Assembly: GCA_029264995.1 (NCBI GenBank) | Contig: JAJUKC010000009.1 | Coordinates: forward strand, 1-48,008 | Origin: Marinobacter sp. | Lineage (GTDB): Bacteria; Pseudomonadota; Gammaproteobacteria; Pseudomonadales; Oleiphilaceae | Length of the DNA stretch: 48,008 nucleotides | Direction: 5' to 3' | Shown: positions 6,146 to 46,882 of the stretch, one piece after another | Layout: every line of letters begins with the position of its first letter | Position numbering within the stretch: position 1 is the stretch's first letter | Notes under the pieces: model-generated | The model's input: the letters and a program-made list of their open reading frames with translations, nothing else | What the model was told of the DNA's origin: nothing | Database searches by the model: none | Made by a program: the position numbers and the translations under genes

Positions 6146-6259
6146 ATCAACGGATCACTGTGATTCAGGGTGAGGCGGCAGTATACCGAACCGGCGATAT
6201 CCCGGCATCCCGGACAAGGGTACAATCCCAAGTCCTTTCAGCACTGGCGAGGGAAAATT

Positions 6260-6916
6260 ATGAGCCCCGATGTTCTCAATCGGCATCTTCAGAAAACCCT
6301 GACTCGAGGCCGGGTGGCGGTTTCGGCGCCTGCGGGCTGCCCGGATATCCAGCTGTATCTGTTCGACCCGGGGGTGCTGGATGGGCCGTTGAGCCATGAT
6401 GAAGCTCAGGCTGTGGTGGCCGAGCCGGCGTACTGGTCGTTCTGCTGGGCCAGCGGGCAGGTGCTGGCCCGGTGGATTCTGCAGCATCCGGACGTGGTGG
6501 CTGGCAAGACCGTGCTGGATTTTGGCTCCGGTTCAGGGGTAGTGGCTGTCGCCTCCGCACTGGCCGGTGCTGCCCGGTCCATAGCCTGCGACATCGACGC
6601 GGCAGCGCTGGATGCCGCGGCTGCCAATGCCCGACTGAATAATGTGACGGTTGATTTGTGTGACGACTGGGCAAACCGGCCCGGGAGCGTCGACCTGATT
6701 ACCGCTGCGGATGTTCTGTACGACCCTGAAAATCGCCCGTTACTGGCGGCCTTCGAAGCAGCCGCGCCCCAGGTGCTGCTGGCGGATTCGCGAGTGAAGG
6801 ATCTTGGTCATTCCGGTTATGTGCAGCAGGCTGTGATCGAAGCCAGAACCTGGCCGGATCTGAATGAGTTTGAGGAATTCAACAAGGTGAGGATCTATCT
6901 GGCCGGCGGTGACTGA
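6260..6916 (+). CDS. Class I SAM-dependent methyltransferase (ETFB-lysine/PrmA-like)
   Basis: 218 residues from the ATG at 6260 (MSPDVLNRHL), preferred over an in-frame start at 6170 because GAGGG precedes it and the longer N-terminus looks non-coding. The SAM-binding motif I is VLDFGSGSGVVAVASALAGA, followed by an acidic motif II (ACDIDAAAL) and a motif near DLITAADVLYD. The overall pattern resembles the family annotated as nicotinamide N-methylase or ETFB lysine methyltransferase, related to PrmA, which methylate protein lysines. The true substrate cannot be told from sequence. The stop is only 14 bp before the T-run and terminator of the antisense-oriented CsrB-like RNA, so the two genes converge. 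Confidence 0.8.
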   Translation: MSPDVLNRHLQKTLTRGRVAVSAPAGCPDIQLYLFDPGVLDGPLSHDEAQAVVAEPAYWSFCWASGQVLARWILQHPDVVAGKTVLDFGSGSGVVAVASALAGAARSIACDIDAAALDAAAANARLNNVTVDLCDDWANRPGSVDLITAADVLYDPENRPLLAAFEAAAPQVLLADSRVKDLGHSGYVQQAVIEARTWPDLNEFEEFNKVRIYLAGGD

Positions 6917-6930
6917 GCTTTTCTGGCCAG

Positions 6931-6962
6931 AAAAAACAAAGGGCAGCCATCAAGCTGCCCTT
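6931..6962 (-). terminator. Intrinsic terminator of the CsrB-like RNA
   Basis: On the minus strand a perfect 9-bp stem, AAGGGCAGC (6962-6954) with GCTGCCCTT (6947-6939), loop TTGATG, is followed by TGTTTTTT down to 6931. The T-run exists only on this strand, which fixes the direction of transcription. Confidence 0.88.
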
Positions 6963-7197
6963 GAACAGGTACTGAACCGCCATCCGGGGCAGTTCAGATT
7001 CGGAACAGGTTGGCGCCTCCGTGCGCGATGGGCAACTGCCGTGTTGCCATTCCTTGCTGCCGTTCCCTGGTGCCAGCATCCGAGCCGGCGATCCGATTCG
7101 TTATCCCTTAAGCGAAGCGTCCCTGTGTCCCTGCTTCTCCCCGCAGTCCGTGCCGGGGTGCATCCAGTGCGTCGTCCTTTCCCTGTCATCCTTGACG
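6931..7197 (-). ncRNA. csrB: CsrB/RsmZ-type CsrA-sequestering small RNA (predicted)
   Basis: Read on the minus strand, this stretch has fifteen GGA motifs in about 267 nt, several as CAGGGA or AAGGA, while the opposite strand is nearly free of them. Many lie in hairpin loops: GCA-CTGGA-TGC (7170-7160); CCCCGgCA-CGGAC-TGCGGGG (7158-7139); GAAGC/GCTTC around two AGGGA (7137-7114); TTA-AGGGA-TAA (7111-7101); TGCTG/CAGCA around CAGGGA (7078-7055); GCGC-ACGGAG-GCGC (7026-7013); GAACTGCC-CCGGAT-GGCGGTTC (6995-6974). It ends in a strong terminator. RNAs of this type titrate the translational repressor CsrA/RsmA. The 5' end is inferred from a TAATAT at 7209-7204 and is approximate. No credible ORF lies here. 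The family identity is inference from architecture. Confidence 0.8.
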
Positions 7198-7203
7198 GTG
7201 TTC

Positions 7204-7209
7204 ATATTA
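7204..7209 (-). promoter_or_regulatory. Possible -10 element of the CsrB-like RNA
   Basis: TAATAT on the minus strand, about 7 nt before the inferred RNA start. No good -35 is seen 16-18 nt upstream, consistent with a promoter that needs an activator. Position is tentative. Confidence 0.35.
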
Positions 7210-7283
7210 CCAATGCCAGCTTTACAAACGTGTGAACTATGCACGCAGAACGCGTTGCCGAACTCGTCAAACATGGGAAAGTT

Positions 7284-7354: not shown

Positions 7355-7374
7355 TTCCTACAGGTATGTAGGAA
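7355..7374. promoter_or_regulatory. Dyad TTCCTAC-N6-GTAGGAA, candidate distal activator site
   Basis: Perfect 7-bp arms (7355-7361 and 7368-7374) centred about 168 nt upstream of the inferred CsrB-like RNA start, just after the VanZ-like stop. Distal activator sites at similar distance are known for Gac/UvrY-controlled RNAs. It could instead be a weak hairpin at the end of the VanZ-like gene; there is no T-run. Confidence 0.4.
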
Positions 7375-7379
7375 ATATC

Positions 7380-7784
7380 TCACAAAGATTCGGGCGATTT
7401 TCGCAAATCCGATTCTTGAGCCAGTCGCAACCCAGGCCAGGGTAGCAGGCCAAGGCCGATGCCAACGGCATCCGCTGTCAGATCCGCGAGGGAGAAATCC
7501 CGGTACGGCAGGTTGGCTTGCACCACCTCCAGTATCAGGCCGAAAGCCAGCAAGGCGGGGGCGTACCAGAGCACCGAAAGCCGCGGCCATGCCAGGCGGG
7601 TCAACAGGGTGAGCTCCAGAAAGGCAATCAGGTGATTGATCTTGTCATTGGGCGCCGCGGGGATGGGGTAGCTGTTGCTGGTGGTAGCCAGATAAAGGAT
7701 CGCAGCAATGGAAACAAACAGTGCTGCCTGCCAGAGCCGTTGCATGGTCAGAATGGAAACAATAATGGAACGGATGCGGGGCAT
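7380..7784 (-). CDS. VanZ-like small membrane protein
   Basis: 134 residues from the ATG at 7784 (MPRIRSIIVSIL). Hydrophobic segments are near residues 15-35, 65-95 and 105-120, with the VanZ-like NDKINHLIAFLEL and FSLADLTADAVGIGLGLL stretches, the latter matching the family's D-x-x-x-N/D-x-x-G pattern. VanZ-like proteins are of unknown or varied function; the founding member raises teicoplanin resistance, but most bacterial copies are not resistance genes. The start is uncertain: an in-frame extension upstream to 7874 has no ribosome site and would overlap cysZ, and a later ATG (MQRLWQAALF) is possible. It is divergent from cysZ and upstream of the CsrB-like RNA. Confidence 0.75.
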   Translation of the reverse strand: MPRIRSIIVSILTMQRLWQAALFVSIAAILYLATTSNSYPIPAAPNDKINHLIAFLELTLLTRLAWPRLSVLWYAPALLAFGLILEVVQANLPYRDFSLADLTADAVGIGLGLLPWPGLRLAQESDLRKSPESL

Positions 7785-7879
7785 AGTGGAATCCAGGCGT
7801 CCTCGCGGGCTGTGGGAATGGTTTCGACATGATATGCTTTGCGCCCCGTTATTGTCATGGCAGCGGAGGAACACCAGTA

Positions 7880-14550: not shown

Positions 14551-14579
14551 TTGGCAAGCCCGAAATTCCAGAGTAGAGT
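14551..14579 (+). promoter_or_regulatory. Probable sigma-70 promoter of the cold-shock gene
   Basis: TTGGCA (14551-14556), 17-nt spacer, TAGAGT (14574-14579). The start at about 14586 would give a leader of about 165 nt, close to the long leader of E. coli cspA. GACGTAC at 14620-14626 resembles the core of the E. coli cold box. Confidence 0.55.
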
Positions 14580-14750
14580 GGGTTCGTAGGAAAGAATCAG
14601 CAAAGCAGTTCATGAATAAGACGTACCTCCGCAGTTAGTAGTGACCGTCCTGTTTTTGATCCCGCGAGTTCTGTTTTTCCGTAACACGCTGACCAGCACC
14701 ATACGAGTGTGTGGCAGCAGATAATATGATTGATTTCAGGAAGTTTAAGT

Positions 14751-14957
14751 ATGTCTACTACTACCGGTACTGTTAAGTTCTTCAACGAAGCAAAAGGCTT
14801 TGGCTTTATCACTCGTGAAGGCGGCCCGGACGTATTCGTTCACTACAGCGCCATTCAGGGCTCTGGTTTCAAGACCCTGGCCGAAGGCCAGCAGGTCGAG
14901 TTCACCGTAACTCAGGGCCAGAAAGGTCCTCAGGCGGAGAACGTTGTTGCTCTGTAA
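14751..14957 (+). CDS. Cold-shock protein (CspA family)
   Basis: 68 residues from ATG 14751 ([19 protein letters not shown]), with AGGAAG about nine bases upstream; an upstream in-frame ATG at 14730 is not preferred. The RNA-binding motifs KGFGFI (RNP1) and VFVHYSAI (RNP2) are intact. The protein binds single-stranded RNA and DNA and melts secondary structure; some family members are cold-induced, others constitutive. The ~165-nt predicted leader and the cold-box-like GACGTAC suggest post-transcriptional cold regulation, but this is inference. A perfect terminator follows the gene. Which of the several Csp paralogues this is cannot be decided from sequence, so no symbol is given. Confidence 0.93.
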
Positions 14958-14982
14958 TCCCCTGAGGATTCAGCAATAACCC

Positions 14983-15010
14983 AAAAAAGGCAGCCGAGGC
15001 TGCCTTTTTT
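14983..15010. terminator. Bidirectional terminator between csp and dienelactone hydrolase
   Basis: Perfect 12-bp stem AAAAAAGGCAGC (14983-14994) with GCTGCCTTTTTT (14999-15010), loop CGAG. The A-run and T-run make it an intrinsic terminator on both strands, serving both convergent genes. Confidence 0.93.
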
Positions 15011-15019
15011 GTTGCCTGT

Positions 15020-18737: not shown

Positions 18738-21470
18738 ATGTCAGAAGTCAGTACGTCGGGTTCAAAGGGTTCGGTGGCCAGGGGGGAGCAGTCTCAGGCC
18801 TGGCATGCCATAGCCGCAGAACAGGCGCGGGTGTTTCTGGATGCACCGGAGCCTTTGACCGACGAAAGCGCGCAGGCCAGGCTGGAGACCTTTGGTCCCA
18901 ACCAGTTACCAGAGGGTAGGACGTCCGGCCCCCTGGCCCGTCTCGGGCGCCAGTTACGTAATTTCCTGATCTACGTACTGCTGACCGCAGCGGCCATCAC
19001 CGGTGCCCTCGGGCACTGGGTGGATGCCGGGGTGATTCTGGCGGTAGTGATTATTCAGACCCTGGTCGGCTTTATCCAGGAGGGGCGGGCCGAGCAGGCC
19101 TTATCGGCTATCCGTCATATGCTGGCTCCCCGCGCCCGTATTGTCAGGGCCGGCGGCCAGCATCAGGTGGATGCGAGTGAGTTGGTGCCCGGGGATACCG
19201 TGCTATTGGAAGCCGGTGACCGTGTGCCCGCCGATATTCGCCTGGAAAAAACCAACAACCTCAAGATTGAGGAAGCCGTACTGACCGGCGAATCCGAGGC
19301 GGTGGACAAGTCCCCCGACCCGGTGGAGGAGCAGTCGGCTCTCGGCGACCAGACAGGCATGGCGTTCTCCGGAACCATGGTGGCCACAGGCACAGCCCGG
19401 GGCGTTGTCGTGCGCACTGGTACGCATACCGAGATCGGCCGCATTTCCGGCCTGCTGGCGGATACCACAAGCCTGAAAACTCCCCTGCTTGAACAGATGG
19501 ACCGGTTTGCGCGGGTGCTTTCGCTGATCGTTGTAGCCGCCGGCATTATCATCTTTTTTGGCGGACTGGCGTTCAGTGGTCTGGAATTCCGGGAGCTGTT
19601 CATGGCCGTGGTGGGCCTGACGGTGGCGGCCATTCCCGAAGGCTTGCCGGCCATTCTTACCATTACCCTCGCCATTGGGGTGCGCCAGATGGCCCGTCGC
19701 AAGGCGGTAGTTCGCCGGATGCCGGTGATCGAAACCCTGGGTGCGGTATCGGTCATCTGCTCGGACAAGACCGGCACACTCACCCGTAACGAAATGATGG
19801 TGACCACGGCCGTGACTGGCGGTGAGCGTTATGAGATTACCGGCGAAGGTTATGGTACCGACGGCAGGGTCTGCCGGGAGGGCCAGCCGGTCACTGGCGA
19901 TGGGGTGCTGGCTGAGCTTGCCCGGGCAGCTGCGCTGTGTAATGACGCCAGCATCATTGGCAAAGACGGGCAGCCTTCTATCCATGGTGACCCCATGGAA
20001 GCCGCGCTGAAAGTGTTTGCCGGCAAGGCGGAATTTGATCACCTGAACAGTGCCACCGCCTGGCCGCGAGTGGATGAGGTTCCCTTCGATACCCGCATAC
20101 GGTTCATGGCCACATTGCACCACGACCACCACGGCCACGGTATTGCCTATCTCAAAGGTGCTCCGGAACGGATCCTGGCTATGTGCGCGCACCAGGTGTC
20201 CCCGGATGGTGGAACCGAGTCGCTGAGCAAAGAGCACTGGGAACAGGTCATTACGGAGATGGCTTCCGAAGGTCTGAGAGTGCTGGCACTGGCGCGCAGG
20301 CCAATGGCGAAAGGCAGCCGGGAGCTGGTGGTGGAGGAGCTGGAACAGGGCGCGGAACTGCTGGGGGTGGTGGGTTTGCTGGACCCGCCCCGGCAGGAGG
20401 CTATCCGGGCTATCGAGGAGTGCCATGATGCCGGTATTCGGGTGAAGATGATCACCGGCGACCATGCCCTGACGGCCGGTGCCATTGCCCGAAAACTCGG
20501 GCTGCGCAATACCGACCGGGTACTGACCGGCAATGAGCTGGATGAGCTGGATGAAGACCAGCTCCGGGATCTGGCCGGCGAGGTGGATGTGTTTGCCCGC
20601 ACCAGCCCCGAGCACAAACTTCGGTTAGTGAAAGCGCTGCAGGCACTGCACGGTGTGGTGGCCATGACCGGTGATGGGGTCAACGATGCACCGGCACTGA
20701 AGCGCGCTGATGTCGGTATTGCCATGGGCGTAAAGGGTTCGGAAGCGGCCCGGCAGGCGTCATCGGTGGTGCTGCTGGATGACAACTTTGCCAGCATTGC
20801 TGCGGCTGTCCGGGAAGGGCGCACGGTTTACACCAACCTGCGCAAAGGCATCGCCTTCATGCTTCCGATTAACGGCGGTGAATCCGTCAGCCTGATCACT
20901 GCCTTGTTACTGGGACTCACGCTGCCCATTTCCGCCTTGCAGATTCTGTGGGTGAATATGGTCAGCTCAGTGCTGCTGGCCATGACGCTGGCGTTTGAGC
21001 CGCCGGAGCCCGGCGTCATGCGACAACCGCCAAGACCCCGGGATGAATCCTTGCTGCAGGGTTTTGTGGTCTGGCGGGTAGCGCTTGTCTCCCTGCTGTT
21101 TCTGGTGGGTATCTTCGCGGCCTGGTTCTGGGTGATGCATCGCCATCAGGATCCGGTGCTGGCCAGCACATTAGCGGTCAACACCCTGGTGGCGATGGAG
21201 GTCTTTTATCTGTTTGCGGTGCGTTATCTTGATAGCGCCTCAATTACCCTGCGGGGGGTTCTCGGCACGCCCGTTGTGCTGGCAGCGATCGCGGCGGTCG
21301 TGGCGTTGCAGCTGTTGTTCACCTATCTGCCCTGGTTCCAGAGCACCTTTACCACCGCTGCTCTGAGCCTGGAGCAGCTGGCATTTTCCGTGGTGGCCGG
21401 TGTCGTGGTCCTGGTGGTGCTGGAGCTGGAAACCGCGATACGCAACCGGCTCAAGGCAGCCCGCGGGTAA
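18738..21470 (+). CDS. P-type ATPase, P2A-like cation pump
   Basis: 910 residues. Visible parts: N-terminal cation-ATPase domain (AWHAIAAEQARVFLDAPEPL), actuator motif TGES (LTGESEAV), the PEGLP motif in TM4, phosphorylation site DKTGTLT with Asp343, and the hinge TGDGVNDAPALKRAD. The PEGLP motif and length place it with the P2A group (SERCA/PMR1-like) that moves calcium or manganese, though some members are annotated as generic cation or magnesium pumps. Ten membrane helices are expected; six lie after the hinge. GGAG is nine bases before the ATG at 18738. Its last 20 bp overlap the convergent phosphoketolase gene. Confidence 0.9.
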   Translation: MSEVSTSGSKGSVARGEQSQAWHAIAAEQARVFLDAPEPLTDESAQARLETFGPNQLPEGRTSGPLARLGRQLRNFLIYVLLTAAAITGALGHWVDAGVILAVVIIQTLVGFIQEGRAEQALSAIRHMLAPRARIVRAGGQHQVDASELVPGDTVLLEAGDRVPADIRLEKTNNLKIEEAVLTGESEAVDKSPDPVEEQSALGDQTGMAFSGTMVATGTARGVVVRTGTHTEIGRISGLLADTTSLKTPLLEQMDRFARVLSLIVVAAGIIIFFGGLAFSGLEFRELFMAVVGLTVAAIPEGLPAILTITLAIGVRQMARRKAVVRRMPVIETLGAVSVICSDKTGTLTRNEMMVTTAVTGGERYEITGEGYGTDGRVCREGQPVTGDGVLAELARAAALCNDASIIGKDGQPSIHGDPMEAALKVFAGKAEFDHLNSATAWPRVDEVPFDTRIRFMATLHHDHHGHGIAYLKGAPERILAMCAHQVSPDGGTESLSKEHWEQVITEMASEGLRVLALARRPMAKGSRELVVEELEQGAELLGVVGLLDPPRQEAIRAIEECHDAGIRVKMITGDHALTAGAIARKLGLRNTDRVLTGNELDELDEDQLRDLAGEVDVFARTSPEHKLRLVKALQALHGVVAMTGDGVNDAPALKRADVGIAMGVKGSEAARQASSVVLLDDNFASIAAAVREGRTVYTNLRKGIAFMLPINGGESVSLITALLLGLTLPISALQILWVNMVSSVLLAMTLAFEPPEPGVMRQPPRPRDESLLQGFVVWRVALVSLLFLVGIFAAWFWVMHRHQDPVLASTLAVNTLVAMEVFYLFAVRYLDSASITLRGVLGTPVVLAAIAAVVALQLLFTYLPWFQSTFTTAALSLEQLAFSVVAGVVVLVVLELETAIRNRLKAARG

Positions 21471-24021: not shown

Positions 24022-26625
24022 TTAACGGGTTTTGTGTTCCAGGCTGAATGGGCGGCCCCAGTAATAACCCTGCCCCTGCAAGCCCGGAAACTGATGCAGC
24101 CAGAGTGCGATGGTTTCGTCTTCCACGCCTTCGACCACCACATCCAGGTCCAGGGCTGTGCCCAGCTCAAGAGCGGCACGAAGTATTTTCTGTCTTGAGG
24201 GGTAATCCAGTACCCCCTCCAGAAAACTCCGGTCGATTTTCAGCTCATCCAGCTCGAACTGTGCCAGGGCTCCGAGTGAGGAGTGGCCGGATCCGAAGTC
24301 ATCCAGTGCAATCCGGAAGCCCATCGCGCTCAGGGTTCGGATGGTACTGCGGGCCGTGTCCGGATCGGTCATCATGGCGGTTTCAGTAATCTCCAGGCTG
24401 ACATTGGCCGGTTCCAGCTTGTGCCGTCGAACGATGGCACCGGCTTCCTCGTGGAACAGGCTGTGGGCCAGATCCTTGGCGGAAATGTTCACAGCTACGG
24501 TGATATCGCGGCCATACTGTTCACGGAGCTGGTGACTGTCCCTGCAGGCACGGTCCAGCACCCAGAGTGTAACCGTGTGAATGATCCCCACTTCCTCGGC
24601 CAGGGGAATCCACTGGCTGGGCGATATCCTGCCGAATTCCGGGTGCTGCCAGCGAATCAGGGCTTCCAGTGAGCCAATCCGGCCATCGCGGATGTTGATC
24701 TTGGGCTGGTACTCCAGCCACATTTCGCCGGAACGCAGCGCTTGTTCCACATCCAGCATCAGCATTTGCTGGCGGTATTGCCATTCGGCAATGGCCGGAT
24801 CATAAACCACCAGCGGCAGGCTTTCGTCCAGTGAAGCAAAGCCGGCACAGGCGAGTACGCCGGCCGGTTCCGCACCGTGTTCCGGGGCGTGGGCGACGCC
24901 AACCGAGGCGGCCCAGGAAAATGAAAAACGGCCTTCTCGGAAATTTTCGGATAACCAGCGGCTGATGGCCTGCAGGCGTTGTCTCTCCAGCGCCTCGTCG
25001 GGGTGGCGCAACAGGGCAAAGGCATGGTTGACGGTATCCAGGGTAGCCACGCTGTAACCGTTGATCATGACCAGTTGATCGCCCACCGTTTGCTTGAGAT
25101 ACCGGTTGAGTTGCCGGAGATACTGCTTCAGGAGCTCTTCTGCGGCACGGTAGCCCAGGGCCTGTTCCAGTTCATTGAACCGGGCCAGGCGGATCATGCA
25201 CAGGGTGTAGGGCGTTTTATGGCAGTCCAGAGCGCCCAGGGTTTCCTCCAGCATGGGCCGATTGGGCTTGCCGGTTACCCTGTGGGTTTTCAGTAAACGG
25301 TCATAATCACGCTCGATGCTGGCCCGAAGTTTCTGTTCCTCCTGCACCCGTATGTCTGAGCTCATGCGTTTCTTGCGTTCTTCCAGCAGCAGTTTGCCCA
25401 CACCACTGGTCAGGATCAGGGACCCGGTTGCGGCACCCAGGAAAAAGGCGGAGTCGGTCAGCGCATTTACGGGCAACCAGCCAACGGTACGAAGCGATGA
25501 GGTGACAGCCCCGATCACGATCGCCAGTACCGACAAGGCATAGTAGCGGGCGTAAACGTGGCTGTTCAGCTGGCGCAGGCTCAGGGCAAAGATGAACAAC
25601 CCGCCGATGGCGCTGCTCATCAGGAAAGCGTGTTGTCCCAGGAACTGGAACCCCAGAGGTGCAGCCAGGAGGTGCGCTCCGGCAAGGAGGCTGAAGGCCC
25701 GGAGTATCCGGGCCTCAGTGCGGGCCAGCTGGAGAAAATGCGGGGTAAATTCGCAAAGCGCGATCAGACACAGGGGCAGACTGATGTTGAGCAGGGCGTT
25801 GAGCTCTGGCAGCGCCGGCCAGATCAGCCACAGCCCCAGGCCGTCCATCACCAGCTGACTGTAGATAACGCTGATCATCAGCACACTCAACCAGGCCAGT
25901 CCCGGTCGGCGAAGCTTGGCGACGATGCTGAGGTTGAGTAACAGGGCAAACACCAACAGGCCGGTGACAAACGATTTCCAGGCGGTGATGGCAGTGCCAG
26001 CACCGAGCGCCTCAGCGCTGTCTGACAGGGTGACCGGCAACAGCACCGGGCCGCGATTCTGCACTTCCATCAGCAGGGTGGTGGTGCCCGGTTGCAGCGT
26101 GACCGGCCAGACCCACTGCGGCAACGCCAGGTAGCGTTGATCGAAGGGATATCGATCGCCCATCGCAGGCAGGCGTTCAATCTGGCCGTCCGGGTGAATC
26201 AGGGCCGGCTGCAGGTGATCCAGGTAGGGTGCGGGCACCGTCACCTGGCTGGTCGCAGGTTCTGACGCCGGGTTCTCAAGTGTCAGCCGGAACGTGGCGG
26301 GCTTGTAGGGGTAGCCGATTCCGGAATAGCCGGTATCCGTGCGGCTCCAGGCTTGGGATTGCCAGAGTTTGTCTTGCAGTACTTTGCCCAGAGGGTGGAT
26401 CAGATATTCGATCTGGCCAGTGATCCGGGGGCCGGTTGCGGAGCTGTCGGTTTGAACCGAAGGACTGACCGACAGGGTCGGCAGTTCCTGCCAGAAGGTG
26501 GTGGCAAGTCCGTAGGTGATGGCCAGGAGAAGGATGACAAACGGAAATGACTGGTGCAGCCACGCCGGTAATCTGCCCGAGCGGGTTTCCCTGGAGAGAG
26601 TCTGGCCGAGCGACGGAGAGTCCAT
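24022..26625 (-). CDS. Membrane sensor with degenerate GGDEF and intact EAL domain (c-di-GMP phosphodiesterase)
   Basis: 867 residues. N-terminal membrane anchor (~25-45), a periplasmic region (~50-210) of the 7TMR-DISM extracellular type, seven-helix block (~215-410), a linker helix, a GGDEF-like domain (~440-600) in which the motif reads as INGYSVATL and is not catalytic, and a full EAL domain (~625-860). The EAL active site is kept: EALIRW near 653, NISAKDL, EITETAM, ALDDFGSGHSS, LKIDRSF and VVEGVED. It should hydrolyse cyclic di-GMP and sense a ligand through the outer domain; the ligand is unknown. The upstream gap holds tandem GTTACA repeats. The ribosome site (TTCAGG) is very close to the start, so the start is moderately certain. 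Confidence 0.88.
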   Translation of the reverse strand: MDSPSLGQTLSRETRSGRLPAWLHQSFPFVILLLAITYGLATTFWQELPTLSVSPSVQTDSSATGPRITGQIEYLIHPLGKVLQDKLWQSQAWSRTDTGYSGIGYPYKPATFRLTLENPASEPATSQVTVPAPYLDHLQPALIHPDGQIERLPAMGDRYPFDQRYLALPQWVWPVTLQPGTTTLLMEVQNRGPVLLPVTLSDSAEALGAGTAITAWKSFVTGLLVFALLLNLSIVAKLRRPGLAWLSVLMISVIYSQLVMDGLGLWLIWPALPELNALLNISLPLCLIALCEFTPHFLQLARTEARILRAFSLLAGAHLLAAPLGFQFLGQHAFLMSSAIGGLFIFALSLRQLNSHVYARYYALSVLAIVIGAVTSSLRTVGWLPVNALTDSAFFLGAATGSLILTSGVGKLLLEERKKRMSSDIRVQEEQKLRASIERDYDRLLKTHRVTGKPNRPMLEETLGALDCHKTPYTLCMIRLARFNELEQALGYRAAEELLKQYLRQLNRYLKQTVGDQLVMINGYSVATLDTVNHAFALLRHPDEALERQRLQAISRWLSENFREGRFSFSWAASVGVAHAPEHGAEPAGVLACAGFASLDESLPLVVYDPAIAEWQYRQQMLMLDVEQALRSGEMWLEYQPKINIRDGRIGSLEALIRWQHPEFGRISPSQWIPLAEEVGIIHTVTLWVLDRACRDSHQLREQYGRDITVAVNISAKDLAHSLFHEEAGAIVRRHKLEPANVSLEITETAMMTDPDTARSTIRTLSAMGFRIALDDFGSGHSSLGALAQFELDELKIDRSFLEGVLDYPSRQKILRAALELGTALDLDVVVEGVEDETIALWLHQFPGLQGQGYYWGRPFSLEHKTR

Positions 26626-39411: not shown

Positions 39412-40272
39412 ATGCTGGATGTAACCCGAAAACTGGTGGAGTTGCTGGATCTTTCCCCGATCGGAGACGATCATTTTCAGGGCGACAGCGAGGATCTGGG
39501 CTTTCCGCATGTATTCGGGGGGCAGGTTCTGGGGCAGGCCCTGATGGCGGCCAGCCGGACCGTCGAAAATCGCCTCTGTCACTCTCTCCATGCCTATTTC
39601 CTGCGCCCTGGCAATCACAGCATGCCAATCGATTATGAAGTCCAGCGTGTTCGGGATGGCGGCACTTTTTCGGTGCGTCGGGTGATTGCCCGTCAGGATG
39701 GCAAGGAAATCCTGACCGGCTCCATGTCATTCCAGGTCGCGGAAGAGGGGCTGGATCATCAGGTCGATATGCCGGCAGCGCCGGACCCGGATACGCTCAA
39801 GTCCGAGCAGGACTGGGGCAAGCTGATCGCAGATAAAGTGCCGGAGAAAATGCGGGATATGTTGACCCGCGACCGGCCTATAGAGATCCGTCCGGTCGAC
39901 CCGATGAATCCGTTCAAACCGGAAAAGCGCCCGCCCCATCGTCAGAATTGGTTCCGGGCCCTCGGGCCTTTACCGGATGACCCGGTGCTGCATCGGTGTC
40001 TGCTGACCTATGCCTCTGACTTCTCGTTTCTGGGTACGTCCCTGAACCCTCACGGGCGCACCTTCATGAGCAAGAGCATGCAGGTTGCCAGCCTGGATCA
40101 TGCCATCTGGTTCCATCGGGATTTCCGCATGGACGACTGGTTGCTTTACGACAAGGATAGCCCAAGTGCATCGGCTGGCAGGGGCTTTAATCGGGGTAAC
40201 TTCTTTACCCGGGATGGTGTGCTGGTGGCTTCCACCACTCAGGAAGCACTGATCCGGGAGCGTAAGGCCTGA
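39412..40272 (+). CDS. tesB: Acyl-CoA thioesterase II (TesB)
   Basis: 286 residues, as in E. coli TesB (286), with two hotdog domains. The catalytic set can be placed at Asp203 (YASDFSFLG), Ser227 (QVASLDHAIWFH, where E. coli has Thr) and Gln277 (TTQEALIR). It hydrolyses medium- and long-chain acyl-CoA to free acid. It lies downstream of the rubredoxin operon but after a terminator, so it is probably separate. Its last 34 bp overlap the end of the convergent EAL gene. Together with fadE it fits a lipid- or alkane-using organism. Confidence 0.95.
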   Translation: MLDVTRKLVELLDLSPIGDDHFQGDSEDLGFPHVFGGQVLGQALMAASRTVENRLCHSLHAYFLRPGNHSMPIDYEVQRVRDGGTFSVRRVIARQDGKEILTGSMSFQVAEEGLDHQVDMPAAPDPDTLKSEQDWGKLIADKVPEKMRDMLTRDRPIEIRPVDPMNPFKPEKRPPHRQNWFRALGPLPDDPVLHRCLLTYASDFSFLGTSLNPHGRTFMSKSMQVASLDHAIWFHRDFRMDDWLLYDKDSPSASAGRGFNRGNFFTRDGVLVASTTQEALIRERKA

Positions 40273-42794
40273 GGATTGTAATCGCCCAGCCATTCGACCA
40301 TGTCATCAAAGGGTAGTGGCCGGGTGAGGAAGTAGCCCTGCACCATATCACACCCCATGTCTTTCAGCAGCGACAGGGTTTTCTCATCCTCCACCCCCTC
40401 GGCCACGACGGTGTAGCCGAGGCTGTGGCACATGTCGATGGTGGTGCGCACGATCACTCTATCCTGCTCCCGTTCCGCTATATCGGTAATTAGTGAACGG
40501 TCGATTTTGATTTCGCCGGCCGGCAACTGCTTGATGTAGGACAGCGACGAATAGCCGGACCCGAAGTCGTCAATGGAGAGCGGAATGCCCGCGGCATCAA
40601 GCGCGTTCAGCGCCCGCAGGGAATTGGTGGGGTCCTGCATCATGGAGGTCTCCGTGACCTCGAAGGTGATGGCCCCGGAGTGGAGCTGGTAGCTTTGCAT
40701 CAGCCGTTGTACGAACACGGCAAAATCCGGCTCCCGCAGGTTATTGGGCGAGATGTTGACGGCGATTCCGGCATCCCAGCCGATCTCCAGCAGCCGCCCC
40801 CGCATTTCCAGGGCCTCTTTCAGCACCCATCGGGTCAGGGGTTTGATCAGCCCGGTCTGTTCGGCCACCGCGATGATTTCATCGGGCCGCACCGGCTGTT
40901 CCCGCCTTGGCCAGCGAATCAGTGCCTCAAATCCGGTAATGGTGCGGGTACGCAGGCACAGCTTCGGCTGCAGGAACAGAGTCAGCTCGTTGTGATCGAT
41001 GGCGTGGCGCAGGTCGGAGACCAGAGTCAGTCGGTCGGCGCTGTAGGAGTCCCGGGAGGATTTGTAGTAGGCAATTCCGCGGTCTCGGGCGCGGTCAGAA
41101 CCTTCGGCGATCACCGCCCGGCGAATCAGGGTGTTGGCATCGTTTCCGTGAGTCGGGTAGAAAGCCACGCCGAGCTGTGGGTTCAGGGGAACCTGCATGC
41201 CAAGGAAATCTACCGGGTAGCGGATCTCTTCAATGCTGCGCAGCACGATTCTGGGCACCGACAGCGCCTGGTCAGCATCCACCACAAAGGCAAAGGTTTG
41301 CGGGTCGAGGCTGGCCAGGAAGAAGGTTCGGTTGTCGGTCTGCTCCAGGGAGATGGCGCCGGGTACATCCTTGATCACCGCGTTGTAGTGTTTGGAGGCC
41401 AGCTCCAGAATGCGGTCGGTGTTGCGGTGGCCCAGGGTTTTGGTGACCGGATACAGGTTGTCCAGATGGATGATGACCACGCCGAAGCGTTTGCCGCGCT
41501 GGCTCCGGATCAGTTCGTTCAGGCGCATTTCGTAGCTGCTGCGATTGGGCAGGCCAGTGAGCGGATGGTGCAAGGCCTGGTCCATCAGCCGGAGTTCGGC
41601 TGTGCGCCGAGCTTCGAGTGCCTTGAGTTCCGCCTCCTGGGCCAGCACTTTCTCCTGGCGCTCGTGATAGATCCGGATGGCCAGAGCCAGGCTGAGCAGA
41701 ATGGCCTGGAAGGCGGAGCCCAGTTGCATGCCATAGACCGAGAAGAAACTGGTGGGAATCAGGCCATACTTGTTGGCGGCGGTAATGGCGCTGCCCAGGG
41801 TGACGGCTCCCCAGGCCAGGGTGTAGTACACCGCCTGTGGATTGCCTCGGGCCCATTGCAGGGGGCCGACGACAGTAAGCAGCAAGCAACTGGGAATCGC
41901 CAGGGCCACGGTTAGCCGGATGCCAGTGCCGTAATCAATCACCATAGTCGACAGTGCCAGCACTGCGTTCAGTACGATGGTGGCCAGCATCAGCTGATCG
42001 AGCCGCGGGCTGCACTCATGCAGCTTCAGGAACGAGCGGGAAAACATGAGGGTGAACAGCATAGCCAGCGGTATCGACAGCACCATGGCATTACTCTGGA
42101 CCGCGGGAAGTGTCGGCCACAGAAACTGGTAGGTAATTCCATTCAGGGTGCCGATCAGGATCAGGTAACCCAGGGTCGAGAGCACGTAATACAGGTAGAT
42201 GGATTCCCTGAGCGCCAGGAACACAAACAGGTTGAAGCAGATGGCGGTAATCAGGATGCCGTAGTACAGGGCGTGAACCTGGCTCTCTACGGAGGTCTTC
42301 TCGAAAAAACTGCGATTGTTCCAGAGCCGGAGCGGCACCTGCATGGCACCGTCGGTGTCGATTCTCAGCAAAATGCGGTAGTTGTGATCAGCTTCAAGCT
42401 GGAACGGGAACAGGAAGTGGGGATGTTCCACCGGGCGCTCCGAGAACAGCATGCGGTCGCCGGTCTGATAGCTCAGCTGGATTTCGCCGTCCCGTAACAG
42501 ATAGAAATCGATTCGATCCAGATGCGGGTAAGTGATCTCCAGAAGATTGGTGGTTCGGGGCTGGCTGATCGGAAACTGCAGCCAGACCTGGTCACGGGTG
42601 TAACCGAAATTAGGCGTTTGTTCGTTCAGGATTTGCCAGTCGCCGGATTCCAGGGCCTGTTGCGGGCTGCGTTGGTCGTCCGGTGCCAGTCTCAGGTACT
42701 CAATGGCTGGAATATAGCCATCACCGGCAGCCATGGCGGGAAGCGAAAGCGCCAGAAGAATCAGCAGAGCTGCCAGGGGTCGGGCCAGTTGCAT
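40239..42794 (-). CDS. Second membrane sensor with degenerate GGDEF and intact EAL domain
   Basis: 851 residues from ATG 42794 (MQLARPLAALL); a GTG nine bases upstream is a possible alternative. Signal peptide (~1-22), 7TMR-DISM extracellular domain (~25-175), seven-helix block (~180-380), coiled linker with KVLAQEAELKALEARRTAELRL, a GGDEF-like domain (~415-585) with no GG(D/E)EF, and a full EAL domain (~595-845). The EAL site keeps EALIRW, NISPNNL, EVTETSM, SIDDFGSGYSS, IKIDRSL and VAEGVED, so it should hydrolyse cyclic di-GMP. It has the same architecture as the protein at 24.0-26.6 kb but is not a recent duplicate, judged by sequence divergence. Its 3' end overlaps tesB by 34 bp. Confidence 0.88.
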   Translation of the reverse strand: MQLARPLAALLILLALSLPAMAAGDGYIPAIEYLRLAPDDQRSPQQALESGDWQILNEQTPNFGYTRDQVWLQFPISQPRTTNLLEITYPHLDRIDFYLLRDGEIQLSYQTGDRMLFSERPVEHPHFLFPFQLEADHNYRILLRIDTDGAMQVPLRLWNNRSFFEKTSVESQVHALYYGILITAICFNLFVFLALRESIYLYYVLSTLGYLILIGTLNGITYQFLWPTLPAVQSNAMVLSIPLAMLFTLMFSRSFLKLHECSPRLDQLMLATIVLNAVLALSTMVIDYGTGIRLTVALAIPSCLLLTVVGPLQWARGNPQAVYYTLAWGAVTLGSAITAANKYGLIPTSFFSVYGMQLGSAFQAILLSLALAIRIYHERQEKVLAQEAELKALEARRTAELRLMDQALHHPLTGLPNRSSYEMRLNELIRSQRGKRFGVVIIHLDNLYPVTKTLGHRNTDRILELASKHYNAVIKDVPGAISLEQTDNRTFFLASLDPQTFAFVVDADQALSVPRIVLRSIEEIRYPVDFLGMQVPLNPQLGVAFYPTHGNDANTLIRRAVIAEGSDRARDRGIAYYKSSRDSYSADRLTLVSDLRHAIDHNELTLFLQPKLCLRTRTITGFEALIRWPRREQPVRPDEIIAVAEQTGLIKPLTRWVLKEALEMRGRLLEIGWDAGIAVNISPNNLREPDFAVFVQRLMQSYQLHSGAITFEVTETSMMQDPTNSLRALNALDAAGIPLSIDDFGSGYSSLSYIKQLPAGEIKIDRSLITDIAEREQDRVIVRTTIDMCHSLGYTVVAEGVEDEKTLSLLKDMGCDMVQGYFLTRPLPFDDMVEWLGDYNPQALRSRISAS

Positions 42795-42901
42795 CAGAAT
42801 CACAGGTTACCGTTCTTGTCGTTATGGCCTGAGTATGGCCTGTCGTCTGGGGCGGCTCAAGCCGTAACCGGCAGACTTTTGGTAACTTGTGTAATTATTG
42901 G

Positions 42902-46379: not shown

Positions 46380-46646
46380 ATGAGTTCATCTGTCGAGAGC
46401 CGTCAGGCGCGGATGATTGAAGAGTTGCGGGTGTTCATCAAGAAAGTGATGAGCGATCCGACGATTGCCGTGAAGTCCATGGAGATTGCCCGCAAGTACA
46501 AGGGCGAGGCCAATGCCGATGAGCTGATGGCCCGTGAGATCAGTGCCAATACCACGATCCGGATTCCGGAGAGCTGGAGTGAGGCCGACAAGATGTTTCT
46601 GGAGATCCTGCACGAGGTGCTGGATGACGAAGAGGCGCTTTACTGA
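46380..46646 (+). CDS. Conserved small protein of unknown function
   Basis: 88 residues from ATG 46380 (MSSSVESRQARMIEELRVF); GGGGAG precedes it by six bases, which decides this start over an in-frame one at 46296. The protein is helical, acidic at the C-terminus (EILHEVLDDEEALY), and without a signal peptide, membrane helix or Cys pair. I do not recognise a family. Codon use looks like its neighbours, supporting a real gene. It lies 100 bp after the PiT gene on the same strand, with a weak hairpin between. Confidence 0.65.
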   Translation: MSSSVESRQARMIEELRVFIKKVMSDPTIAVKSMEIARKYKGEANADELMAREISANTTIRIPESWSEADKMFLEILHEVLDDEEALY

Positions 46647-46677
46647 TTAGTCCCAGGTGTTGAACGACGAACTCTGA

Positions 46678-46788
46678 GCAAGGGGATGGGGAGCTTCTCC
46701 CAAAACCTTGCGGAGCCATGGATGGCGGAGCAGAGCGTACAGGGATGTATTCACAGCGTGTTTTGGGAGAAGCTCCCCATCCCCTTGC
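46678..46788. repeat. 29-bp perfect inverted repeat with 53-bp centre
   Basis: The arm at 46678-46706 is exactly reverse-complementary to 46760-46788. Each arm also contains a small GGGAG-CTT-CTCCC dyad. It lies between the convergent small-protein gene and the decarboxylase. Open frames across it look like translated repeat rather than genes. Confidence 0.9.
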
Positions 46789-46882
46789 GGGGCTCCGGCT
46801 GACTCCGCAAGGTTTTGGAAAGGGCTCCCGCAAGCCCCGCCCCAAAGCTTTGATAGGCGCCGAATGCTCCGCAAGGTTTTGG
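46700..46882. repeat. Three copies of a 16-bp repeat CTCCGCAAGGTTTTGG
   Basis: Inverted copy at 46700-46715, direct copies at 46803-46818 and 46867-46882. The two direct copies extend on the right to AAAG and a degenerate CTCCCGCA. Likely copies of a genome-dispersed intergenic repeat family; this is inference from the pattern. Confidence 0.85.

Follow-up and report, generated by a model that had tools for sequence, protein, structure and literature searches.

We analysed a 48,008-nt stretch of a Marinobacter sp. contig (the window; JAJUKC010000009.1, from an assembly of 144 contigs that is 72.85% complete) and found in it a candidate regulatory RNA of the CsrB/RsmZ type, here named RNA1. It lies on the minus strand, with a VanZ-like gene of the same orientation upstream and a convergent methyltransferase gene on the other side. 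The features of the locus are as follows; changes in paired positions refer to the alignment of 59 sequences described below.

6931–7197, minus: RNA1, predicted CsrB/RsmZ-type RNA of about 267 nt with 15 GGA (GGA count, DNA search, covariation and GGA register)
7185–7196, minus: hairpin GUCA-AGGA-UGAC, GGA in the loop (helix 1, one-sided changes only)
7160–7170, minus: hairpin GCA-CUGGA-UGC, GGA in the loop (helix 4, its two pairs invariant)
7139–7158, minus: hairpin CCCC..GGGG, CGGAC in the loop (helix 5, both-side change in 1 pair)
7114–7137, minus: hairpin GAAGC..GCUUC, two GGA in the loop (helix 6 in the same stretch, both-side change in 2 pairs)
7072–7089, minus: hairpin GCCGGC-UCGGAU-GCUGGC, GGA in the loop (helix 8, both-side change in 3 pairs)
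7013–7026, minus: hairpin GCGC-ACGGAG-GCGC, GGA in the loop (helix 10, both-side change in 1 pair)
6972–6997, minus: extra hairpin with GGAUG in the loop (inserted, together with its GGA, in 12 of 59 sequences; gap in 47 of 59 rows)
6931–6962, minus: intrinsic terminator, stem 6939–6962 and T-run (6 of 10 pairs changed on both sides)
7204–7209, minus: -10 element TAATAT, with TGG immediately before it as in an extended -10 (by reading)
7367–7384, minus: putative GacA/UvrY-type upstream activating site TGTGAGATATTTCCTACA, overlapping the vanZ 3' end (pattern match and conservation in relatives)
7380–7874, minus: VanZ-like gene, upstream (29.9 bits, just below the Pfam cut-off of 30.1)
6170–6916, plus: PrmA-like methyltransferase gene, convergent (50.6 bits)

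GGA motifs and hairpins of RNA1

The stretch 6931–7197 carries exactly 15 GGA triplets on the minus strand and 1 on the plus strand, as a sequence-only reading of the same DNA had counted (fifteen against about one). The chance level of about four that was assumed there agrees with the mean of the window, which is 4.1 GGA per 267 nt on the minus strand and 4.5 on the plus strand. Fifteen is the maximum among all 267-nt stretches of both strands of the window, and it is reached nowhere but at 6931–7197; the runners-up have 14 (20132–20436, plus strand, within a 910-aa frame) and 13 (46553–46827, plus strand). When 6931–7197 was shuffled by mononucleotides, 15 GGA were reached in 4 of 20,000 shuffles, with a shuffle mean of 6.7. 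At about 46553–46827, reading also revealed a near-inverted repeat around GGGAGCTTCTCCC and CAAAACCTTGCGGAG.

Nine of the 15 GGAs can be placed in a hairpin loop of 4–14 nt closed by 4 or more contiguous pairs, which bears out the at least six loop GGAs noted earlier. This number is reached by 0.6% of 1000 shuffles of RNA1 (shuffle mean, 3.7). The loop rate per GGA is 60%, near the 55% of the shuffles. Thus, the excess of loop GGAs stems from the number of GGAs and not from a special hairpin habit, and the strength of the observation is the GGA number together with the strand bias, not the hairpins alone. The terminator, described earlier as a 9-bp stem with a T-run on the same strand, has a perfect 9-bp stem, extended by one wobble pair, and then TGTTTTTT on the minus strand.

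Conservation of RNA1 and its putative promoter region

A DNA search found RNA1 in 34 of 58 genomes (the window's own genome included), and all 34 are among the 37 genomes of the genus. An exact pattern derived from RNA1 matched 47 stretches of named genomes, 46 of Marinobacter and one of Streptomyces. The Streptomyces match (L053) has no similarity to the remaining sequences and was dropped as a relative of RNA1. By eye, M. nauticus DSM 50418 (L074) has a copy almost letter-identical to that of the window. We aligned 59 distinct RNA1 sequences (alignment A1), of which 30 are DNA-search loci (the best 30 places, from the 34 matched genomes) and 29 come from the 47 pattern loci, after removal of L053, 16 identical copies and L046 (the same as L017 by eye). 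For L017, L043, L047 and L076, the ends were assigned manually. The pattern-search query contains GGAs 3 and 4, and their conservation is therefore forced in those 29 rows.

In A1, 12 of the 15 GGA positions are each occupied by an exact, aligned GGA in 57 or more of the 59 rows, and for two others 58 rows carry a GGA no more than 4 columns away. The last GGA (6985) belongs to the hairpin insertion; 12 of the 59 sequences, including that of the window, have this insertion together with its GGA. Column identity is 95.8% at GGA columns, as against 76.3% at the other unpaired columns. The consensus structure of RNA1 has 50 pairs, and 98.3% of their cells are paired in A1; when the partners are slid, this falls to 35–50%. 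Fifteen pairs are changed on both sides, compared to 4.9 in shuffles that ignore the relatedness of the sequences, and 15 were reached by none of 500 such shuffles; the changed cells number 67, compared to 8.7. Six of the 15 pairs are in the terminator and nine in inner helices. Stem conservation in relatives, which the sequence-only reading had proposed as a check, is thus seen as covarying stems.

The stretch had also been called free of open reading frames. Two mechanical frames do cross it, one of 79 aa on the minus strand (6950–7189) and one of 108 aa on the plus strand (6909–7235), so that the description holds only in the sense that the relatives do not preserve any frame. On the RNA strand, 55, 58 and 56 of the 59 rows are interrupted by one or more stops in the three frames, respectively, and RNA1 lengths fall into every class modulo 3. 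A small protein gene (the 79-aa frame) or a chance composition would agree with the open frame in the window and with the plus-strand frames, which are open in 12, 5 and 11 of the 59 rows. Given these stops and lengths, as well as the compensatory stem changes, we regard this explanation as extremely improbable. A reading frame conserved across the interval, which had been named beforehand as evidence against a regulatory RNA, does not persist in the relatives.

Upstream of RNA1, a GacA/UvrY-type box is kept at a nearly fixed distance. Its centre lies 170–175 nt before the RNA1 start (about 172 nt) in the 57 sequences with enough upstream DNA; L058 and L076 have too little and were left out of the box scan. 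The relaxed pattern used for the scan, TGTRAGNNATNNCYTACA, was loosened from the known consensus after sight of the window copy and with the E. coli csrB box in mind. Its fit to both of these is thus partly by construction, and a strict form was scored too. The window box has 0 mismatches to the relaxed form and 2 to the strict form (by reading), and 7367–7384 on the minus strand is the single exact match to the relaxed form in its own genome. Among the 57 sequences, mismatches to the relaxed form number 0 in 29, 1 in 15, 2 in 12 and 3 in 1, so that 56 have at most two. At most two mismatches to the strict form are found in 40 of the 57, versus 0 of 1140 shuffled upstream regions. The -10 element reads TATAGT in 48 of the 59 rows, TATATT in 5, TAATAT in 2 and otherwise in 4. 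Exact relaxed boxes exist in 24 of the 37 genus genomes; 19 of them are at RNA1, 4 at a second GGA-rich RNA described below (RNA2) and 1 elsewhere.

The VanZ-like gene is upstream on the RNA strand in 57 of the 59 loci, and the other two (L058 and L076) are short of upstream DNA. RNA1 might accordingly be the 3' untranslated region of the vanZ mRNA, its GGA-rich part being released by processing as reported for RsmW and RsmU; RsmA-binding RNAs derived from 3' untranslated regions are known (PMC4950607, PMC7694677; here and below, published work is cited from excerpts of the papers). However, the conserved -10 at the RNA1 start and the box at a fixed distance indicate a promoter of its own, which makes this origin unlikely. 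Even so, CsrA binding would still be expected, and only the biogenesis would differ from that of a stand-alone RNA1. On the other side of RNA1, the methyltransferase gene was found in 49 of the 59 loci and is convergent in all 49. A downstream frame on the same strand, present in 56 of the 59 loci, has no Pfam family; we take it to be selU.

We then searched the 37 genus genomes with a covariance model (R1) built from A1, and hence from many of the copies that it then refinds. The same 34 full-length copies were recovered, plus a 71-nt fragment in one genome (G026). Outside the set from which R1 was built, a genome from another genus of the same family (G222) has a 110.6-bit copy of RNA1 with a similar box and -10. 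The fragment of G026 (L149, about 2016–2086) has 6 GGA in the surrounding 421 nt, a VanZ-like frame upstream (by reading) and an upstream box with one mismatch to the relaxed form. It looks like an RNA1 copy that shrank. Matches of 17–32 bits in 37 of 194 genomes, all from other families of the order, were not counted as homologs, nor were weak second matches of 12–30 bits in several genus genomes; the contig of the window itself has one at 1423–1553 (17.8 bits). These weak matches, mostly of 50–150 nt, are taken for terminator hairpins that match while the rest of the model is deleted.

CsrA, GacA and a second GGA-rich RNA

The genome of the window encodes both protein partners expected of such a system. 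Its CsrA scores 115 bits (NCBIfam cut-off, 73) and adjoins a frame that is presumably aspartokinase-like; its GacA/UvrY ortholog scores 301 bits (NCBIfam cut-off, 280) and is followed by a frame that we read as uvrC. Of the 58 genomes searched for CsrA, 57 have it, and all 25 genus genomes searched for GacA score above its cut-off. Contig 142 (L002, 1501–1689) codes for a further, diverged CsrA-like protein (62 aa); with 48.6 bits it is below the NCBIfam cut-off and with 53.4 bits above that of Pfam. Extra CsrA-like proteins of 48–59 bits were also seen in three relatives (two in G008, one each in G024 and G036). The window itself contains, by reading alone, two long EAL/GGDEF cyclic-di-GMP-like frames on the minus strand (24022–26625 and 40239–42803). 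Proteins of this type are often under CsrA control.

RNA2 was first noticed at box matches away from RNA1 in four relatives, where the opposite strand is rich in GGA (14–15 per 200 nt at two of the sites and 9 at the other two). A DNA search with one RNA2 copy found it in 31 of the 37 genus genomes, including that of the window (contig 4, 967–1235). A covariance model (R2) derived from such RNA2 copies extended this to 36 of 37, two of them weak (41.7 bits in G025 and 24.2 bits in G030), and gave a 47.9-bit match in G222. Two matches each were seen in G011 and G179; those of G011 have equal scores near both ends of a single contig, perhaps an assembly overlap. The copy in the window's genome is located as follows.

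Contig 4, 1041–1233, plus: RNA2 (locus L174), 13 GGA, box centred 65 nt upstream

The box of this copy has 4 mismatches to the strict form. In the RNA2 alignment (A2; 29 of 30 loci, L184 being left out for a start unlike the search string), the box stands at 65 nt in 28 of the 29 copies and has at most two strict mismatches in 17 of the 29, a count without shuffle control. A helix-hairpin-helix gene (Pfam HHH_3), which we take to be ComEA-like, starts 67–180 nt downstream on the same strand at all 29 loci. No stem with a T-run terminator was seen by eye at the RNA2 end of the aligned loci. By reading, the first hairpin of RNA1 resembles that of RNA2 (GTCA-GGA-TGAC). RNA1, RNA2 or both were detected in 36 of the 37 genus genomes; only G033, which is 62% complete, yielded neither. 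In G004, where RNA1 was not found, CsrA, GacA and RNA2 are present.

These observations allow the tentative suggestion that the lineage has two CsrA sponges of its own, RNA1 with its own terminator and RNA2 as a GacA-activated 5' leader of the ComEA-like gene. If so, a single RNA2 transcript would both titrate CsrA and encode a competence-type DNA-uptake protein. The sequence-only reading had seen in RNA1, if real, the main hub for the control of carbon storage, biofilm and motility. The view of RNA1 as a CsrA-sequestering RNA is supported, but RNA2 with its own box in the same genome suggests that RNA1 is not the only hub. In the CsrB/CsrC pair, loss of one RNA raises the other (PMC7652899). 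If RNA2 shares the role of RNA1, deletion of RNA1 alone may likewise show little.

Relation to known Csr/Rsm RNAs and proposed function

A scan of the whole window with Rfam 15 at the gathering threshold gave a cspA match only and none at RNA1. Scans of 5 and then 20 further RNA1 and RNA2 loci gave nothing at the gathering threshold, and with E values up to 10 no match with a gathering score appeared for either RNA. The Rfam comparison proposed in the sequence-only reading therefore turned out negative, since no CsrB, RsmX, RsmY, RsmZ or RsmW model reaches its threshold at RNA1. In a control, E. coli csrB obtained 380.4 bits (threshold 71; RF00018). The best sub-threshold match of RNA1 is RsmW, with 19.3 bits against a cut-off of 52. 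The cspA thermoregulator match lies at 14578–15013 on the plus strand (85.8 bits, threshold 78).

E. coli CsrB is nevertheless comparable to RNA1 in several ways. With the same measures, csrB has 22 GGA in 369 nt (6.0 per 100 nt, compared to 5.6 in RNA1), a far-upstream GacA/UvrY box (182 nt, compared to about 172 nt) and a T-run at its end. On the other hand, its model RF00018 has no match at RNA1, and csrB lies between syd and yqcC, whereas RNA1 lies between vanZ and the methyltransferase gene. RsmY is about half as long as RNA1. Pseudomonas RsmX, RsmY and RsmZ (PrrB_RsmZ, RF00166, and others) sequester RsmA and share with RNA1 the GacA box (TGTAAG-N6-CTTACA) and unpaired GGAs (PMC2375449, PMC4950607). 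They differ in that RsmY has 7 GGA, about half the number in RNA1 (PMC4950607), and in that the RsmX/Y/Z models do not match RNA1. RsmW of Pseudomonas aeruginosa (RF02809, clan CL00106) gives the best sub-threshold match, as mentioned above, but this match (6887–7000) covers only the 3' part of RNA1 and extends beyond its terminator. CsrB-like RNAs have been described in other marine gammaproteobacteria, namely Aln1a-c of Alteromonas and Pf2/Pf3 of Pseudoalteromonas (PMC5864184, PMC11882849), to which RNA1 can be likened by description only; Marinobacter is a community member in PMC5864184. RsmU of Xanthomonas, an RsmA-binding RNA that adjoins comEA (PMC7694677), resembles RNA2 only, and it differs from Marinobacter RNA2, which is 5' of the ComEA-like gene and has a GacA-like box.

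RNA1 might instead be a structured RNA of another function that contains GGA by coincidence, for instance a base-pairing small RNA or a cis-acting element for an adjacent gene. The conserved stems, the lack of an Rfam family and the selU-labelled frame that follows RNA1 in the same orientation (56 of 59 loci) would be compatible with this. However, the GGA triplets stay constant amid varying positions, the terminator separates RNA1 from the downstream frame, and the GacA box has been described for RNAs that antagonize CsrA (PMC4950607). We consider such a function highly unlikely.

RNA1 has the class features that can be tested in DNA: GGAs, a putative GacA box, a host with CsrA and GacA, and a predicted noncoding transcript with its own terminator. 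By these features it is a putative Csr/Rsm RNA, yet one within no described Rfam family. The CsrB/RsmZ-type assignment made from the sequence alone is thus supported by the covarying stems, the absence of a conserved frame, and the GacA box and -10 at a fixed distance. RNA1 is very probably a noncoding RNA that is transcribed on its own under activation by GacA/UvrY and sequesters CsrA/RsmA; its transcription, its interactions with GacA and CsrA and its phenotypes are what we infer from these features.

Several findings weigh against this assignment. No Rfam model recognizes RNA1, its overall fold is not more stable than those of shuffles (z = -1.1), and certain GGAs are predominantly paired in the computed ensemble, for example 7177 and both Gs at 7140. 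The both-side changes in the inner helices are mostly backed by one or a few sequences, and relatedness does not enter the shuffle control. R1 found nothing in the genus genomes G004 (100% complete) and G033, and G026 holds a mere fragment. A simple generic promoter scan gave no sigma-70 match at RNA1, suggesting that the -35 element is weak or replaced by the activator. The box pattern is unspecific: 9 of 21 genomes from other genera contain exact matches, and the exact box of G026 (L108) is at a site without a GGA cluster. Similarly, seven box loci of other genera (L090–L096) have no downstream same-strand 200-nt stretch with more than 8 GGA (the opposite direction was covered only for the two palindromic boxes). 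Thus, the presence of a box does not in itself establish such an RNA.

By analogy with known Csr/Rsm systems (reviewed in PMC7652899), phosphorylated GacA would bind the box at 7367–7384 and drive transcription from the -10 at 7204–7209, and RNA polymerase would halt at the terminator (6962–6931). Of the roughly 14 conserved GGAs, about half lie in hairpin loops and the others in linkers; together they would bind several CsrA dimers and thereby release the mRNAs under CsrA control.

Marinobacter is a genus of oil-degrading, biofilm-forming bacteria that is widespread in the sea. A 2006 study reportedly predicted CsrA-regulating RNAs, and RNA1 may have been among them. In titles and abstract openings of the open-licence papers found on Marinobacter and Csr/Rsm, no RNA of the Gac/Csr switch is named. 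The alignments of RNA1 and RNA2 could serve as two new Rfam seed alignments. The genus also offers a natural series, which comprises RNA1 at full length, a variant enlarged by one more GGA-bearing hairpin (12 of 59 sequences), a fragment (G026) and a species where RNA2 alone is found (G004). Two conserved RNAs with GacA-like boxes would provide a direct handle on the Gac/Csr switch of Marinobacter.
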